From Spirochaeta africana DSM 8902 (lineage in GTDB: Bacteria > Spirochaetota > Spirochaetia > DSM-27196 > DSM-8902): a stretch of DNA of 64,000 nucleotides. The notes below the pieces were generated by a model, which saw nothing but the letters and a program-made list of their open reading frames with translations, did no database searches and had not been told where the DNA came from. Every line of letters starts with the position of its first letter. Positions within the stretch are counted from its first letter, which is position 1. This document shows, one piece after another, positions 16,863-26,454 of the stretch. A program made the translations under genes and the position numbers. The DNA lies in NCBI RefSeq assembly GCF_000242595.2, contig NC_017098.1:1984001-2048000 (forward strand). Reading direction: 5' to 3'.

Positions 16863-19800
16863 TCAATGGAGGCTGCGCACTACCCGCAGTCCGGTAGCAC
16901 TATGGTAACTCTCTCCCGGACCAGCACTGCCGGCACGCCCCAGTGACAGCTCTGTCAGGGTATTACGGAAGGATCCGCCTCGCCGCATCCGACGACGGTT
17001 GACCGCTGCAGGATGCCAGTCAAATACCCATTCATCGACATTCCCGCTCATATCATACAGCCCCAGGCTGTTAGGGCGACGCGATCCTGCCGGCTCCGGA
17101 GCGGCTGTGCCAAACACTGCCAGCTCGGCAGCGGTTTGGGGATCGTCCAGCAGTGCATCGGCACCACTTATCCAGTCTTCCTGCTCCCCGCCCCAGGTAG
17201 CGGCTGCCAACCATTCCTGCGCAGTTGGCAGGCGGAATCCATCGGCATCCGGATGAACATGCGGAGCGTCAACCGAGCCCGGGGTGGTATCTACCCGGGA
17301 TGTATTCGATGCCTGCCGTAACGGCGTACGGAAATCGGCATCAACATAATAGACCGGCTGCAGACTGCTGCTGTACTGCTCGTTGAGATATTCGGTGAGT
17401 GCATTGGTCCATACCAGGGCCGATCGCCAGCTGACGCGGGTTACCGGGTAGTCATCGCTTTCGGCACTGAAATGCCGTGCCCCCTCGTCGGGGATCTGGT
17501 AGCCATTCTCGGCTGCCCAGTTGTAAACGGTTCGCCACTGCCCATAGGTAATCTCAGTAGTTCCGATGGCAAACCCTCCCGCAGAAACCAGTTCGAGATC
17601 GATATCGGAATAGTTTTCCACCAGGGTACCAATGGTCCCATCGTCCGTCTCCGGCTGTGCAGGCCCTGACACAGTCTCGGACTCCGACGCCGGATCAGGC
17701 TCTGATTCCGGCATCGATGCCTGCGGTTCCTGGGCTGGTTGTGCCGATTCAGGCTCAGACTCCTGTTCCGGATCTGCCGCCTCCGGCTGTGGTTCCGGCG
17801 CGGGTTCCTCTTGTTCCGAATCGGGAACAACCCTGGTGGCCGGGCTGGTATCAGCAGCACCACGTGCTATTCGCAGCCCGGCGGTAAAGCCGAACAGGCC
17901 ATTTTCGTCCTGTTCAGCCTCGACGCGACTGACCCGCAAGGCCGATGGATTATCAAAGTAACTCCCCCCGCGATGGGCTGGTGCATAACTGGATCCGCCA
18001 TCAGCATCGGCCAGCAATACCCATTCAGATATATTACCGCTCATGTCCCACAGCCACAGAGGGTTGGGGCTGCGCGACCGCACCGCCTCGGTACTGCCGG
18101 GTACACCGGGAACCACCGCGACCTCGCGAGTGGCACGGTGATCATCTACACTTCCAACCGCACCGGATGCATAATTTCCCGGTGTCCAGAACCCCCCGGA
18201 GTTCTCGGGGAACTCCATGGCACCACCGGAAGAGTCGGCGCCTTTATACCGCGCCGCGAGTTCCCATTCTTCGGCAAACGGCAGACGGAATCCGTCTGCC
18301 CGGGACCGCACATGTATCCCGCCGCGAGCTGCATCCGCCGTATTGGCCGCACGCCCCAAGGGCTGCTGAAAATCGGGATCGGCATAGTATACCGGAACCA
18401 GATCTGCATCGTTTACCTGGTTATACATCTCGGTGAGAGCATTCATCCATGCCATCGCAGACACCCAATCTACCTCGGTTACCGGATGATCCGGTCCGGT
18501 TGCTACCCGGTCCGGCCAGTATCCGCCACGACGCCCTGCAGCAGGGATGGTGTACCCAGCAGATTCCCGGGCCCAGTCACGCACACGCGCCCACAGTGCA
18601 TAGGTAACCTCGGTATCTGCGAGCCAGAACTCATAATCAACCTCGGCAGTCAAGTCGTCATCGATCCCGGCCGGGAACTGAACGGCCGGCACCTGCACCA
18701 GAGAAAAATCCGCATCTGTCGAATCAGGTTCATCCCCTGATTCCAGAAATACCGGCAGCTTTACCACCGCGGTAAATTCCGTGTCCAGACCACCATCCCG
18801 GGTTACAGCGGTTATGGTGGTGGTACCGACAGAATGGGCGGTTACCGTGCCCTCAGAATCCACCGATACGATGTCAGGATGTGCGCTTTTCCAGTCAACC
18901 TCTGTATCGGTGGCCTCGCGCGGATAGATCTCGGCTGCAAGCTGCAGCTGCTGACCAGGTTCCAGTACAGCACTATACTCCTGCAGGCTTAATCCCTGCA
19001 CTGCTATACGCACCGTGACGTCAACACGGCGAGATACGTCATGCGGACCAGCGGCATCTATCCGGATTGAGGTGGTACCAGCAGCTCGCGCCCGGACTAC
19101 CCCATCCGGGGTTACCGAGGCAACCTCCGGATTACTGGAGCTCCAGATCAGACTGCGGTCACTGGCATTGCGCGGAAGCACCTCTGCCTCGATCTGTTGT
19201 GACTGGCCCACGGTAAGGTCCAGTGATTCACTCGTTACGTTAATTCTTTCGGGATGGATCAATCGTTCGGTGCGCACCGGTCGCAGACCATGGGTTCCGT
19301 CTTCGTGGTATGGCCTGGCGAAATCACGACTGTCGGGCCTGAGTTCAGATCCCGGGCTGTTCCAGCTGCCGCCACGCAGTGCTCGCTGATCCCCTACATA
19401 ACCAGGATGCCAGTCGAACACCCACTCGCTTACATTGCCATACAGATCGTATATTCCTAACAGCGAAGCTGCACGAGAGGCGACCTCGGCAGTAGAACCA
19501 CCCGAGGTATCACGATACACTGCATGTTCGCGCATGCTGCTGATCCCTTCCGGAAAGGTAGCGGCAGATTGCCACTCGTGATCCCGCGGCAACCGGAAAC
19601 CATCGGCATCTGCCACAACATGCGGGTTGTCCTGGCTTATGAATACATCGCGCCGGATACGTTCTTCACGAGTGGCCCTGCGCAGTGGCAGCTCCTCGTC
19701 ACTGTCAACATAGTACACCAGTTGCCGGTTCGATCCGGTTACTGCATTGTAGTACTCGGTAAGTGCGTTCATCCAGACAGCGGCCGATCGCCAACTCACC

Positions 19801-20477
19801 CGGGTTACCGGATGCAGACCGGATTTGCTCTGCGCACCATCGTTGCCACGCCGACCAAGGCTGGGGATACTATACAGTTCTCCCCCATCCTCACGGCGCC
19901 CATCACCTCGATCCTGTACAGCCCACCGGTACACCTCCTGCCAGAGAGTGTGGGTAACCGGTGTATCCATTATCCAGAAGGTGTGCTCGGCATCCTGCTG
20001 CTTGTCCGGTATCAGAATAAAGCGGGCTTCTGCATTGGAGAACTGGATTTCATCCCGCACCACTACCCAGACGCTGTCTGTAAGGGATGCTTCCCCGGCG
20101 TCCTGGGCTTCATCGGTTACCTGCTCCCCGTCGCCCGACAGCGTGGCATGAATCTGTACCGTACCGGGACGCAGGGCGGTAACCCGTCCGGCACCGTCAA
20201 CCCTGGCTACCTCATCATTGTCGGAGGTAAAGTTTACCAGCTCGAAGGGATCATCGGGAAGTTCGCCGGACTCTGGTACAAGATCGACCGCAAGCTGCGG
20301 TGAATCACCCACCGACAACACCAGTGAATCCTGCCTCAGGTTCAGGGACTGCCATTGAACCGGTGCTGGTTCCTGCGTCGGCTCTGGCAGTGGTTCGGGT
20401 TCCGGCGTCGTGCGACAGGAGATCATCAAAAAGAGTCCAAAAGTAGAAATCAGGCCAAGTTTACCCGCAGTAGTCAT
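16863..20477 (-). CDS. Giant lipoprotein with three SUMF1/FGE-like and three Big_2-like domains
   Basis: A 1204-aa lipoprotein (lipobox MISC, Cys21). After a Pro/Glu stalk comes a Big_2-type Ig domain (45-145), a formylglycine-generating-enzyme-like (SUMF1) domain (150-405), two more Big_2 domains (410-490, 493-575), a second SUMF1 domain (595-875), an 70-residue Pro/Glu/Ser linker, and a third SUMF1 domain (965-1204). SUMF1 marks in each: PVTRVSW or PVTEVDW, DGFRLP, W-E-x-A-A, GN-x-x-EWV, RGGS(W/Y/F), GLR. The cysteines that catalyse formylglycine formation are missing after RGGS, so these are probably binding or structural domains. It starts 31 bp after the ammonia-lyase stop, on the same strand. 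Role unknown; surface or periplasmic location is inferred. Confidence 0.9.
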   Translation of the reverse strand: MTTAGKLGLISTFGLFLMISCRTTPEPEPLPEPTQEPAPVQWQSLNLRQDSLVLSVGDSPQLAVDLVPESGELPDDPFELVNFTSDNDEVARVDGAGRVTALRPGTVQIHATLSGDGEQVTDEAQDAGEASLTDSVWVVVRDEIQFSNAEARFILIPDKQQDAEHTFWIMDTPVTHTLWQEVYRWAVQDRGDGRREDGGELYSIPSLGRRGNDGAQSKSGLHPVTRVSWRSAAVWMNALTEYYNAVTGSNRQLVYYVDSDEELPLRRATREERIRRDVFISQDNPHVVADADGFRLPRDHEWQSAATFPEGISSMREHAVYRDTSGGSTAEVASRAASLLGIYDLYGNVSEWVFDWHPGYVGDQRALRGGSWNSPGSELRPDSRDFARPYHEDGTHGLRPVRTERLIHPERINVTSESLDLTVGQSQQIEAEVLPRNASDRSLIWSSSNPEVASVTPDGVVRARAAGTTSIRIDAAGPHDVSRRVDVTVRIAVQGLSLQEYSAVLEPGQQLQLAAEIYPREATDTEVDWKSAHPDIVSVDSEGTVTAHSVGTTTITAVTRDGGLDTEFTAVVKLPVFLESGDEPDSTDADFSLVQVPAVQFPAGIDDDLTAEVDYEFWLADTEVTYALWARVRDWARESAGYTIPAAGRRGGYWPDRVATGPDHPVTEVDWVSAMAWMNALTEMYNQVNDADLVPVYYADPDFQQPLGRAANTADAARGGIHVRSRADGFRLPFAEEWELAARYKGADSSGGAMEFPENSGGFWTPGNYASGAVGSVDDHRATREVAVVPGVPGSTEAVRSRSPNPLWLWDMSGNISEWVLLADADGGSSYAPAHRGGSYFDNPSALRVSRVEAEQDENGLFGFTAGLRIARGAADTSPATRVVPDSEQEEPAPEPQPEAADPEQESEPESAQPAQEPQASMPESEPDPASESETVSGPAQPETDDGTIGTLVENYSDIDLELVSAGGFAIGTTEITYGQWRTVYNWAAENGYQIPDEGARHFSAESDDYPVTRVSWRSALVWTNALTEYLNEQYSSSLQPVYYVDADFRTPLRQASNTSRVDTTPGSVDAPHVHPDADGFRLPTAQEWLAAATWGGEQEDWISGADALLDDPQTAAELAVFGTAAPEPAGSRRPNSLGLYDMSGNVDEWVFDWHPAAVNRRRMRRGGSFRNTLTELSLGRAGSAGPGESYHSATGLRVVRSLH

Positions 20478-20508: not shown

Positions 20509-22041
20509 TCAATAGAAACTGGCCGTCATTCGAACGGCAAGCTGTTCCAGGCGATCCCCCAGCGCCACATTTTCACGCACCAACGGGACATCCTCCCGAA
20601 CATATTTGATCAGTTTACGGACCGCCGGGCCGGGGGAACCGGCAATCTCTGCCGCCTGGGCCGCAGCGGTCAGGGTATGCGCCGCCAGCAAGAACCCGAC
20701 CCTGGCTGACTCGCGGAGTTTCAGGGCCGAAAGGGTCCCCATGGACACCACATCCTGGTTACCGCTTTCGGTCGGGCGCGACAGCAGAGAAACCGGTGCA
20801 GCCAGGTGCTGAACCTCGGCAGACAAGGCACTGGTCGTAATTCCCAGAGCCTTGAGCGCAAAGCACGGCTGTGCAGACTCCTCTCCGTCTGCTGGCGGTG
20901 GCACCAGGTTTACCGGCAGACCGGTGCTGCCCTCCAGCAGCAGCTGCAGCTGGCGATCCAGGAGATTGGCGGTGGTAGCAATCGCGATACGAAGATAGTC
21001 CGCAGCCGCCGAAATGTGTCCCCCGTAAAAATTCCCGGTGTGATACACCCTGCCGTCCCGGCTGTCGAACAACGGATTATCGTTGGCCGAGTTCAACTCA
21101 CGCTCGATCCATATGCGCGTCATGGCTACGGTGTCATGCAGGACACCATTCGCCTGCGGTGCGCAGCGCATGCTGTAGCGCGGCTGAATGTTGCTGCCAG
21201 TGTTCGGCTGGTGCTGCCGGCTGATTTCCGTATTCTGCAGCGCAGCCCCCTGCCGGACAGCTGCTGCAGAGGCTATCTGCCCGGGATGATGCTTACTTTC
21301 CTGTACCCATGAGCTGAACGGTTCCTCAGCCAGCTGCATTGCCTCTGCGGCTGCCGCGGTTATCCGGTCGCTCCACTCAGCCAGCCGTCGCGCATCCTGT
21401 AGACCCAGAGCGGCCAGGGCTGTCATGACCGCAGTGCCGTTTACCAGCGCCAGGCCCTCCTTCATATCCCAGCTCCATGGCTCGATGCCGGCAGACTGCA
21501 GGGCATCCGCAGCCGGGACGCGACGGCCTTTTACCCAGGCCTCGCGTTTTCCTGCCAGCACGGCGGCAACGTAACTGAGGGGAGTCAGATCCCCGCTGGC
21601 CCCGACACTGCCGCGGCTGGGGATTACCGGGGCAATACCGCTGTTGAAGATCCTGGCCATGTGCGCAAGCAGTGCAGGACGCACCCCGGACTTCCCCTGT
21701 GCCAGGCTGACAATCCTGGCCAGCAGCACTGCCCTGGATTCCCGTTCACTCAGAACCGGGCCCACCCCAGCCCCGTGATACTCGATTACTGCAGCCTGGA
21801 GGGCTTGTCGCTGTTCAGCCGGAATCGTCATGTCACCCTGGGCGCCAAATCCGGTCGTTACCCCATAGACTGATGATCCCTGCTCCACCAGTGTATGCAG
21901 CAGCGAGCAAGACTCCTCTGCACGGCTATAGACAGAATCAGCCAGCTCAATCGACGCCGGCTGATCAATTATGAGAATAAAGTCGTCCAGGCTCAGCAGT
22001 TGACCGGAACCCGACTCCAGGATAAATTTTTGATTGCTCAT
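20509..22041 (-). CDS. tal: MIO-type aromatic amino acid ammonia-lyase, probably tyrosine ammonia-lyase
   Basis: A 510-aa enzyme of the HAL/PAL/TAL family, which removes ammonia from an aromatic or histidine side chain. The MIO cofactor triad is A148-S149-G150 in GASGDLTPLSY. The catalytic Tyr is Tyr59 in VYGVTTGFG, and there is RYSMRCAPQANG and a later Gln/Glu-rich active-site region. The selectivity pair is Y88-H89, where TAL usually has His-Leu and HAL Ser-His. Placement back-to-back with pyp and a coumarate ligase argues strongly that the product is p-coumarate. The start is ATG 22039-22041 with GGAG seven bases upstream; a longer in-frame extension would run across pyp and is not used. 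hutH is the alternative if the operon context is misleading. Confidence 0.85.
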   Translation of the reverse strand: MSNQKFILESGSGQLLSLDDFILIIDQPASIELADSVYSRAEESCSLLHTLVEQGSSVYGVTTGFGAQGDMTIPAEQRQALQAAVIEYHGAGVGPVLSERESRAVLLARIVSLAQGKSGVRPALLAHMARIFNSGIAPVIPSRGSVGASGDLTPLSYVAAVLAGKREAWVKGRRVPAADALQSAGIEPWSWDMKEGLALVNGTAVMTALAALGLQDARRLAEWSDRITAAAAEAMQLAEEPFSSWVQESKHHPGQIASAAAVRQGAALQNTEISRQHQPNTGSNIQPRYSMRCAPQANGVLHDTVAMTRIWIERELNSANDNPLFDSRDGRVYHTGNFYGGHISAAADYLRIAIATTANLLDRQLQLLLEGSTGLPVNLVPPPADGEESAQPCFALKALGITTSALSAEVQHLAAPVSLLSRPTESGNQDVVSMGTLSALKLRESARVGFLLAAHTLTAAAQAAEIAGSPGPAVRKLIKYVREDVPLVRENVALGDRLEQLAVRMTASFY

Positions 22042-22104
22042 AGAGTTCTCCGTTAGTACCTTGGTAGTATCACATTCCCGATACCGGGACAATATGGAGG
22101 CAAG
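22042..22104. promoter_or_regulatory. 63-bp divergent control region between tal and pyp
   Basis: Must hold at least part of the control elements for both directions. It contains CCCG-ATAC-CGGG, a short palindrome at 22077-22088, and TACC/GGTA half-sites near 22056-22066. GGAG for tal (complement of 22048-22051) and GGAGG for pyp (22096-22100) lie at the two ends. No good -35/-10 pair was found on either strand, which would fit an activator-dependent or alternative-sigma promoter, or promoters lying inside the coding sequences. Confidence 0.4.
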
Positions 22105-22485: not shown

Positions 22486-23652
22486 ATGCTGCAGCTTGAT
22501 CATGGTGAATGTGTCAGATTCACCAGGGATTTTGTAGTATCCCACCTGCGTACAATGCGTGGCGGGTGGGATCTTCCTGCTTCTGCAGAGGATCCGCTTG
22601 ACGCCGATTTTCCGGGAGCCCCCTGGTTTATGGATTCCCTCGAACTGGTGACGCTCTCGGGCATGATCGCCGAGAGTTTCCAGGTGCACCGCAGCGGTAT
22701 CGAGGATATGCTGCTGGCCAGGCGTTCCGTACACGACTGGGCAGAGATCATACACACCTCGCTGCAGCATTACGACCAGGAGATGGTGTTTTATACCTCC
22801 GGCAGTACCGGTGTGCCCAAGCCGGTCATGCATCAAACAGCCTTGCTGCAGCAGGAGATTGCGGCTATTGCCGCTGAGCTCCCGAGCGGGATACGCAGGA
22901 TTGTGTCCACGGTGCCGGCTCATCATATCTACGGATTTCTGTTCACTATCCTGCTGCCGCAGCATCTGATGCTGGAGACGGTTCCTGCAGCTGGGGTGCG
23001 CCCGGTACTGGAGGACACCGATCTGGTGATTGCCGTTCCGGCAGTCCTGCGCAGCTGGAGAGCCCGAGGTGCGAGCTTGCCTGCCGGTGTAACAGTGGTA
23101 TCATCCACCGCCCCGCTGGGGGATGAGGATGCGGCCTGGGTGCTGCAGACCGGGGCAAAGCTGGTTGAGGTTTTCGGATCCAGTGAGACGGCGGGTATCG
23201 GGGTCCGCCGCAACCGGGAGGAAGGGTTTCGGCTGTTTCCGTACTGGGAGCGCAGCAAGGATGGTGATCAGCTGTGGCGGGAAGGGCTGCCAGGGCAGGT
23301 TCCGCTGCTGGATTCCTTTGAATGGCTGAATGAACGTTCATTCATTTATCGTGGTCGCAAGGATCATGCGGTTCAGATACACGGGATCAATGTATTTCCG
23401 AACCAGGTCGAGGAAAAACTGGGGAGCCATCCCCTGGTGCAGGCGGCTGCTGTCCGCAGCTTTGAATCACCTGCCGGCACGCGACTCAAGGCCTTTATCG
23501 TACCGGCAGACAATACCGCTACTGCCGAAATCGAGCAACAGCTCAGAAACTGGGCGGCACAGAACCTCCCGATCCCCGAGAGACCAGCTCACTATCGCTT
23601 TGGCAGCACCCTGCCCCGCACGGAACTTGGCAAAGCGGCAGATTTCAGCTGA
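22486..23652 (+). CDS. pcl: p-Coumarate-CoA ligase, photoactive-yellow-protein type
   Basis: A 388-aa ANL-superfamily ligase, shorter than normal acyl-CoA synthetases and matching the PYP-associated coumarate ligases. It is expected to make p-coumaroyl-CoA for transfer to Cys69 of PYP. ATP-binding loop FYTSGSTGVPKPV (about residue 102), VFGSSETAG (about 226), YRGRKDHAVQIHG (about 291) and a C-terminal lysine in TELGKAADFS. Residues 35-90 look like an acyl-carrier-protein helix bundle with FMDSLELVTL. The start lies 3 bp after pyp, with AGGA overlapping the pyp stop. Together with tal it completes chromophore synthesis. Confidence 0.93.
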   Translation: MLQLDHGECVRFTRDFVVSHLRTMRGGWDLPASAEDPLDADFPGAPWFMDSLELVTLSGMIAESFQVHRSGIEDMLLARRSVHDWAEIIHTSLQHYDQEMVFYTSGSTGVPKPVMHQTALLQQEIAAIAAELPSGIRRIVSTVPAHHIYGFLFTILLPQHLMLETVPAAGVRPVLEDTDLVIAVPAVLRSWRARGASLPAGVTVVSSTAPLGDEDAAWVLQTGAKLVEVFGSSETAGIGVRRNREEGFRLFPYWERSKDGDQLWREGLPGQVPLLDSFEWLNERSFIYRGRKDHAVQIHGINVFPNQVEEKLGSHPLVQAAAVRSFESPAGTRLKAFIVPADNTATAEIEQQLRNWAAQNLPIPERPAHYRFGSTLPRTELGKAADFS

Positions 23653-24068: not shown

Positions 24069-24164
24069 CTGACAACTGGCCACGAATGGGGCCACTGCCC
24101 TCGAAACATGCCACACATCCAGCGCGGCTTGCGGTTTCATCGCGGTATTGATAGGCTTTGCGAT

Positions 24165-25214
24165 ATGGACATCGCCCTGAAACAAATCCCGGTCGCTGAA
24201 CTCAACCCTGGCAACAACGTCATGCAGAGTCCCCGCTGGGCAGCCGTCAAGGGACTGCTGGGACATGAGGTCCTGGGGTTTGAGCTTGATACCAGCGACG
24301 GCAGAGACACCCTGCTGGCGATTATGCAGCAGGGTCCACGCGGGCGCCGTATTGCCTACCTGCCCTGGGCACCGCGAATTCTGCCTGTCTCGGCAAGTGC
24401 GGGCTGTTTCCTGGAGCAGCTTTCGGACGAACTCCAGCACCTGATGCCAGAGAATACCCTGTGCCTGCGTTTTGATTTGCCATGGCAGTCGCCGTTCGAT
24501 GGCGAACCACCAGATGATGTTATCCGTACGATGCGGATGAACTTTGGCACCCGTCTGCATGCCATGCGCAAGGCACCGACAGATATACAGCCCACGGTGA
24601 CTATCGTCCTTGATCTGAATCAAACCGAAGCCGAGCTGATGGCCGGAATGAGATCCAAGACTCGCTACAACATCAGGCTGTCGCAGCGACGGGGGGTTCG
24701 AGTACGAACTGCCGCACCGGATGAGCTGGAAATCTGGCATCAGCTCTACACCGAAACCATGCAGCGGCAGAACATCCCGGTACATCCGATCGGGTATTTC
24801 ACCAGCCTGTTTCATTCCAGAGTGAACAGCCCGTCCGGCACACGATTCAAACTGTTGCTGGCCGAGCATAACGGTGTGCCCCTGGCCGGCTTGATCCTGG
24901 CCATCACCGGTACCGCAGCAGTATACCTGTACGGGGCCAGCAGCAGCCGACGACGGGAGCTTATGCCCAGCTATGCCCTGCAGTGGTATGCCATCCAGTC
25001 AAGCAAGGTACATGGGTGCACCAGCTACGACATGTTTGGCATCCCGTCGGTACCAAGCCCGGACCACCCTATGTACGGGCTGTATCAGTTCAAAAAGGGA
25101 TTTGGGGGCACCGTTGTGTGTCGCCGCGGATGCTGGGACTTTCCGGTGCTGTCGCAGGAATATCAGGCCGTAGGACTGCACGAGCTCACCAGGGGTGGAT
25201 ATCATGGACACTGA
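24165..25214 (+). CDS. FemABX-family aminoacyl/acyl transferase
   Basis: A 349-aa protein of the FemA/B/X (double-GNAT) fold. Such enzymes add amino acids from aminoacyl-tRNA to peptidoglycan precursors. Marks are the N-terminal NVMQSPRWAAVKGLLG, MRSKTRYNIRLSQRRGV (typical M..K.R.NIR..R..G), a GxxAGLILAI strand with YLYGASSS, and YDMFGIP...GLYQFKKGFGG near the end. The start at 24165 (MDIALKQIPVAELN) matches how family members begin; an upstream ATG at 24108 is possible but adds 19 atypical residues. The next gene begins 11 bp inside this one. Cross-bridge amino acid unknown. Confidence 0.88.
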   Translation: MDIALKQIPVAELNPGNNVMQSPRWAAVKGLLGHEVLGFELDTSDGRDTLLAIMQQGPRGRRIAYLPWAPRILPVSASAGCFLEQLSDELQHLMPENTLCLRFDLPWQSPFDGEPPDDVIRTMRMNFGTRLHAMRKAPTDIQPTVTIVLDLNQTEAELMAGMRSKTRYNIRLSQRRGVRVRTAAPDELEIWHQLYTETMQRQNIPVHPIGYFTSLFHSRVNSPSGTRFKLLLAEHNGVPLAGLILAITGTAAVYLYGASSSRRRELMPSYALQWYAIQSSKVHGCTSYDMFGIPSVPSPDHPMYGLYQFKKGFGGTVVCRRGCWDFPVLSQEYQAVGLHELTRGGYHGH

Positions 25215-26454
25215 TCTGAACGGGCTGTGGCTGCAGCTGCATCGCAGTATCCACGAGATACCGCGTGCAGACTGGCAGCGGCTCGCTGTTACCGCCTCCC
25301 CGTTAATGCAGTGGGACTGGCTGGCAGCCCTGGAGGACAGCGGTTCGGTTTCGGCAGAAACCGACTGGGCGCCGCGCCATGCAGCTGTACGCGATGCTGA
25401 CGGCGTATTGATCGCCGCCGCCCCGTTCTACCGCCGCGACAAAAGTAGCGCTGGTGAGTTTGTGTTTGATTTTGCCTGGATCGACGCCGCAGAACAACTG
25501 GGATTCGCATACTTCCCGAAACTGGTCGGGATGAGCCCGGCTACCCCGATTCCGGCCTTTGAGATCCTGATGGATACCAGCTGGTGCCAACACCACCAGA
25601 TTGCCTCCGATCGGCTTAGCGGACATGTGCTGCAGCGAATCCGGGAGCAGGCACTGCAGGAGGGGATTGCATCGATCCACCTGCAGTTTGTCTCCCCGTC
25701 TTTGTGTGCAACCGCCGCCGGATCGGGATTCCAGGAATGGCGACATGCGGGATTTGAATGGCATAACCGGGGCTATCGGGACTGGGACCACTATCTGGAG
25801 CATCTGACCAAGGATCGGCGGCGAACGGCTCGCCGGGAACGCCGGCGCCTGCGTGAACAGGGAGTTGTCACAGAAGTTCGCCAGGGCAGTACAATCCCCC
25901 ACAGCTGGCTGTCACTCATGTACCGCTACTACCGCAATACTACCGATCAATTCGGCCCATGGGCCGCGCGGTTTCTGCGCAAGGATTTCTTTCTGCGGCT
26001 GCACGAGGCTGCTGGTGAACACCTGGTATTTGTCGCCGCATTCCTGACCGATACCAACGAGGCAGATCAGACATCTGTACTACACGATGCGGAACCGGTG
26101 GCGCTGGCAATGCTGCTGAGTAACGGCAGCGAGCTGATGGGTCGTTACTGGGGGTGCAGTCAGCAGCTGCCCTACCTGCATTTCGAGTGCTGCTACTATA
26201 CACCGATTGAGTGGGCTATCCAGCACGGGATTTCTCGATTCAATCCGGGCATGGGGGGAGAACACAAGATTCATCGCGGGTTCGAAGGCGCGCGACATTT
26301 CAGCCAGCACTGGTTTGCCGATCAGCGTATGGCACTGCTGTTTGCCGGAAACATCCATCAATTCAACGATTTTACCCAACAGGAACTTGCCGCTGCATCG
26401 CAGCTGAGTGCATTATATACCCTGCGCAAAGGAGATGGAGATGGCAACACATGA
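25204..26454 (+). CDS. FemAB-like/GNAT protein of the DUF482 (PF04339) type
   Basis: A 416-aa protein whose C-terminal part is the DUF482 signature: LHFECCYYTPIEWAIQHG, then RFNPGMGGEHKIHRGF and HWFADQRM. The N-terminus has SPLMQWDWLAALEDSG. The family is annotated as acyl-CoA N-acyltransferase-like, linked by fold to FemAB peptidoglycan enzymes; the real substrate is unknown. The ATG at 25204 follows AGGGG at a good distance; a GTG at 25195 is an alternative. Overlaps both the FemABX gene before it and msrA after it (14 bp), so the three are co-translated. Confidence 0.87.
   Translation: MDTDLNGLWLQLHRSIHEIPRADWQRLAVTASPLMQWDWLAALEDSGSVSAETDWAPRHAAVRDADGVLIAAAPFYRRDKSSAGEFVFDFAWIDAAEQLGFAYFPKLVGMSPATPIPAFEILMDTSWCQHHQIASDRLSGHVLQRIREQALQEGIASIHLQFVSPSLCATAAGSGFQEWRHAGFEWHNRGYRDWDHYLEHLTKDRRRTARRERRRLREQGVVTEVRQGSTIPHSWLSLMYRYYRNTTDQFGPWAARFLRKDFFLRLHEAAGEHLVFVAAFLTDTNEADQTSVLHDAEPVALAMLLSNGSELMGRYWGCSQQLPYLHFECCYYTPIEWAIQHGISRFNPGMGGEHKIHRGFEGARHFSQHWFADQRMALLFAGNIHQFNDFTQQELAAASQLSALYTLRKGDGDGNT

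Follow-up and report, generated by a model that had tools for sequence, protein, structure and literature searches.

The bacterial enzymes closest in selectivity pair to the lyase described here are tyrosine ammonia-lyases (TALs) from actinobacterial secondary metabolism. The Saccharothrix espanaensis TAL of the saccharomicin pathway carries the sequence LIKYH, with Tyr followed by His at the pair, and forms p-coumarate from tyrosine in vitro, and the S. clavuligerus TAL has Tyr105 at the first pair position (PMC4640377). BagA, from the bagremycin pathway, is reported to combine strict TAL activity with a His at the second pair position, and a 2017 survey of the family listed "known TAL motifs (with YH) and a possibly intermediary motif (FH)" (PMC5651878). 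Unlike these enzymes, the TALs of Rhodobacter sphaeroides and R. capsulatus serve the supply of the photoactive yellow protein (PYP) chromophore, and their pair is His-Leu (HL). A further active-site residue is "always Glu for HAL and Gln for TAL or PAL" (PMC3992019), and in a histidine ammonia-lyase (HAL), GkHAL, the E411D variant is dead (PMC11432326). According to a 2025 review, only 7 of the 113 pyp operons surveyed include a TAL, and the divergence of these TALs prevented a confident assignment of their substrate (PMC12826048). A literature search with PYP, Spirochaeta and ammonia lyase, and with the names of the pairs, returned nothing useful.

The window analyzed here consists of 64,000 nucleotides from Spirochaeta africana DSM 8902 (contig NC_017098.1, positions 1,984,001 to 2,048,000), and its relevant features are listed in Table 1. 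The lyase open reading frame begins with an ATG (22041-22039) that has a GGAG a few bases to its 5' side, its coordinates include the stop codon, and the translation of this frame contains LQAAVIEYHGAGVGPV (minus strand, 20509-22041). A complete PF00221 (Lyase_aromatic) domain spans residues 16-483 (1.9e-147), which together with the Ala-Ser-Gly triad places the protein in the MIO lyase/aminomutase family, and this is the single PF00221 gene in the whole genome (one contig, 3,285,855 bp). The divergently encoded PYP has Tyr42, Glu46 and Cys69 and is 70% identical to the H. halophila PYP. With a Cys69-bearing PYP beside a PYP-type 4-coumarate--CoA ligase (pCL) and the lyase, the locus is a PYP chromophore cassette, and the adjacent PYP-pCL genes support the link between a TAL and PYP that had been proposed in a preliminary description of this DNA. 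The region between the divergent genes contains only weak sigma-70-like matches. The protein encoded next to the lyase gene at 16863-20477 (minus strand; 1204 amino acids) contains three stretches that resemble formylglycine-generating enzyme, along with three Big_2 domains, and two neighboring FemAB-like genes lie 3' of the cassette at 24108-26454 (plus strand).

Table 1. Positions of the lyase gene, its diagnostic codons and the adjacent PYP genes, numbered within the window.
Feature	Position	Strand	Remarks
Lyase gene (510 aa)	20509..22041	-	MIO-type aromatic amino acid ammonia-lyase, best read as a YH-type tyrosine ammonia-lyase
Gln429 codon	20755..20757	-	Position of HAL Glu414 / RsTAL Gln436; coordinates counted from the ORF start at 22041
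MIO-forming Ala148-Ser149-Gly150 codons	21592..21600	-	GASGD in translation; invariant in alignment A2
Tyr88-His89 selectivity-pair codons	21775..21780	-	Tyr88, 21778-21780; His89, 21775-21777
Lyase-PYP intergenic region	22042..22104	.	63 bp between divergent genes
Photoactive yellow protein (PYP), 125 aa	22105..22482	+	TIGR02373, 195.7 bits (cut-off 143)
PYP-type 4-coumarate--CoA ligase (pCL)	22486..23652	+	Best family TIGR02372, 1.3e-94, 317.1 bits; slightly below the cut-off of 334.7

The selectivity pair lies within the stretch AVIEYHGAGVG (residues 84-94). Alignment with three solved enzymes placed Tyr88-His89 in the columns of RsTAL His89-Leu90, SgTAM Ser92-His93 and PpHAL Ser82-His83; as the reference residue numbers come out as published, the right columns were compared. 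The pair is thus Tyr-His, as the preliminary description had read it, with both codons inside the interval it named (21768-21784). Tyr-His is not a chance occurrence, since it is found in a full-length Lyase_aromatic reading frame with the MIO triad and in seven of the eight spirochaete PYP-linked loci. The description of this pair as standard for neither TAL nor HAL does not hold, however, because YH has been described before as a motif of TALs (PMC5651878) and the Saccharothrix TAL has it (PMC4640377). Tyr-His is an established TAL signature, and with this pair and a Gln at the position of HAL Glu414 the enzyme belongs to the already known YH type; for this assignment the Saccharothrix pair was taken as published (PMC4640377, PMC5651878), outside the alignment used here. 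The accompanying rule, by which His-Leu marks tyrosine, Phe-Leu phenylalanine and Ser-His histidine as the substrate, proved too simple, as SgTAM acts on tyrosine yet has Ser-His. The suggested comparison with the H. halophila pair was run on the nearest cassettes, chosen by PYP identity (L025, 119/125; L023, 113/125) as stand-ins for H. halophila, whose own TAL lies outside the fetched loci, and both have His-Leu.

In a second tree, built without the pair columns, Phe and Tyr at the first pair position alternate at least six times, indicating that Tyr88 is labile and His89 constant; a second-place His is the constant feature of the branch that contains the FH (Phe-His) and YH lyases, accompanied by a pocket Lys and Glu like those of PAL-type enzymes. 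YH was rejected as a marker of PYP linkage, as it also occurs in 11 spirochaete lyases (L164, L167, L168, L170-L172 and L175-L179) from genomes without a match to an H. halophila-type PYP and in the plasmid lyase L140. In spirochaetes without such a PYP, the YH/FH lyases L130, L163-L168, L170-L175 and L177-L179 form a group with good support, whose members are about 60-68% identical to L130.

Bacterial genomes were scanned with a PYP profile, which resulted in 80 loci; of the loci fetched in the course of the analysis, L156, L161 and L180 were left out. HL lyases were found in Halomonas, Rheinheimera, Chromatiaceae, Ectothiorhodospiraceae and others in the co-directional order PYP-pCL-lyase, and FH lyases were found in the same order in Idiomarina, Aliidiomarina and Arsukibacterium. 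In eight spirochaete loci (the window, L102, L103, L104, L024, L029, L034 and L055) the lyase is instead divergent from PYP-pCL, and the pair is Tyr-His in all but L102, which has Phe-His; L022 and L104 denote one locus, which was entered once, and three of the eight loci came from a separate genome search. Counts of TALs in pyp loci must therefore take in divergently transcribed lyases. Two further spirochaete PYP-pCL pairs (L026 and L068) have no lyase that was found nearby, and in the ligase tree their pCLs group with that of Rhodothalassium and not with those of other spirochaetes.

A maximum likelihood tree of 46 lyases separated the HALs (one clade, 100/100) from a clade of HL lyases with RsTAL (97/95) and from a third branch (100/99). 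On the latter sit the PYP-linked lyases of the spirochaetes (90/96) and those of the Idiomarinaceae (100/99), together with PYP-free FH, YH and FL lyases; one of these, L138, comes from a Pseudoalteromonas cluster that also encodes an acyltransferase and acyl carrier proteins. Forcing the spirochaete and HL sets into one clade was rejected (AU test, p = 2e-6), as was joining the spirochaete and Idiomarinaceae sets (p far below 1e-10), p-values that are somewhat optimistic because the groups, though defined by linkage and pair, were named after the tree had been seen. These clade tests reject a single common origin of the PYP-linked lyases. They also support the earlier proposal that the lineage is distinct from that of the Rhodobacter type: the window lyase shares with the Rhodobacter TALs the probable role in PYP chromophore supply, the fold (TM 0.89) and the equivalent of Gln436, but has YH in place of His-Leu, is about 34% identical to them and lies in a separate clade. 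The descent from HAL proposed alongside it was not borne out, as the lyase lies outside the HAL clade, with the FH/FL (PAL/TAL-like) branch, and has the Gln of TAL and PAL, not the Glu of HAL. The Idiomarinaceae lyases resemble that of the window in their linkage to PYP-pCL, their second-place His and their broad branch; they differ in having Phe-His and in lying downstream of and co-directional with pCL, and would represent a separate recruitment.

In the ligase tree, two cassettes with an HL lyase (L052 and L072) are the nearest kin of six FH cassettes (L035, L057, L073, L087, L093 and L095), with the same gene order. HL and FH lyases thus appear to have been exchanged in place in closely related PYP-pCL cassettes, which suggests that both types do the same job. 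Distant PYP relatives of the Leptospira type in Spirochaetota (L141-L149) have HL lyases about 1-8 kb away, so that this phylum uses both lyase types, HL at Leptospira-type and YH at H. halophila-type PYP loci. We consider it likely that PYP cassettes recruited a lyase at least three times (HL in the Rhodobacter type, FH in Idiomarina and YH in spirochaetes), with HL and FH swapped in place, and that the spirochaete YH clade comprises uncharacterized tyrosine lyases in which tyrosine use is fixed by the second-position His and not by the first residue. As the pair itself was already known, the greater value lies in this repeated recruitment of differing lyases to PYP cassettes; it is less expected that the gene sets of a blue-light sensor would have drawn on three or more distinct branches of the family for their tyrosine lyases. 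Reading the pair together with the Gln divides the lyases linked to PYP into an HL, an FH and a YH type that share one genetic role, a variety that offers a natural test of what both selectivity residues do, and the YH and FH enzymes are candidates for p-coumarate production.

Taken with its genomic context, the lyase is very probably a YH-type TAL with tyrosine as its main physiological substrate, giving p-coumarate for PYP. In the 79-row alignment, Gln occupies the Glu414 position in every full-length HL, FH and YH row and in SgTAM, while all 22 HAL rows (Ser-His or Thr-His) have Glu. The complete genome was searched for a histidine-degrading pathway: neither urocanase (hutU) nor a second MIO lyase was found, and hutI had no specific match, only a weak partial one (35 bits). 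Histidine is therefore an unlikely substrate, given Gln429 in place of HAL Glu414, the absence of urocanase and the absence of another such lyase. In the related genome G200, a separate HAL with Ser-His and Glu (L121) is present alongside the PYP-linked lyase (L102). No NCBIfam model for a lyase or mutase gives the protein a score above its curated cut-off, and the best matches are HAL models (TIGR01225, 373.5 bits, cut-off 539.15; NF006871, 384.7 bits, cut-off 524); it is also far below the BagA/FevW model (NF041222, 330.9 bits, cut-off 1000). An AlphaFold2 model was obtained with a mean pLDDT of 90.4 and a pTM of 0.92, with the lowest confidence at residues 146-148 in the MIO loop. In a Foldseek search of the PDB with this model, the best matches were R. 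sphaeroides TAL (E 7e-32, TM 0.89), SgTAM and AdmH, and since these and PpHAL match nearly equally, the fold does not tell the substrate.

By analogy with the family, Ala148-Ser149-Gly150 would cyclize to the MIO electrophile, which would take the amino group of L-tyrosine, with Tyr59 (present in the alignment) as the likely catalytic base and the carboxylate presumably held by conserved Arg, Asn and Tyr residues. His89, constant in the FH and YH enzymes, probably touches the phenol hydroxyl of the substrate, and Tyr88, which alternates with Phe, may be a secondary contact. The neighboring pCL would then activate the p-coumarate released, for attachment to Cys69 of the divergently encoded PYP.

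Three other activities were weighed against a YH-type TAL. Beyond the pair, the pocket has Lys and Glu at the positions of RsTAL 405 and 432, which we take to be PAL features, and the same-branch relative L136 has Phe-Leu (FL), so some activity on phenylalanine is plausible. FH has also been called a possible PAL-TAL intermediate (PMC5651878), and the TAL FlxA is weakly active on Phe (PMC3992019). That the enzyme is a bifunctional Phe/Tyr ammonia-lyase, accepting both amino acids with tyrosine turnover sufficient for PYP, is nevertheless improbable: a second-place His is reported to accompany strict TAL activity in BagA (PMC5651878), PYP is not known to make use of cinnamate, and the cassette includes pCL and no hydroxylase. 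SgTAM is the nearest PDB sequence and shares with the window lyase a His second in the pair and Gln at the HAL Glu position, but an SgTAM-like tyrosine 2,3-aminomutase with p-coumarate as a by-product is very unlikely, as SgTAM has Ser-His and sits on another branch, the lyase reaches only 310.4 bits against the TIGR03832 cut-off of 501, no beta-tyrosine pathway was seen adjoining the lyase, and PYP requires p-coumarate. A HAL that is merely a neighbor of PYP has the least chance of all and was rejected: although hutH enzymes share the fold, MIO and second-place His with the lyase and their models top its matches, its scores fall far under their cut-offs, it has Gln where they have Glu414 and Tyr-His where they have Ser-His, it lies outside their fully supported clade, its genome has no urocanase, and its linkage to PYP-pCL is conserved.

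Elsewhere in the set, four lyase-like proteins (L155, L157, L158 and L160) either show no clear Ala-Ser-Gly in the MIO columns of the alignment or carry an unusual pair (Ala-His, Leu-Cys), and are possibly not ordinary HALs.
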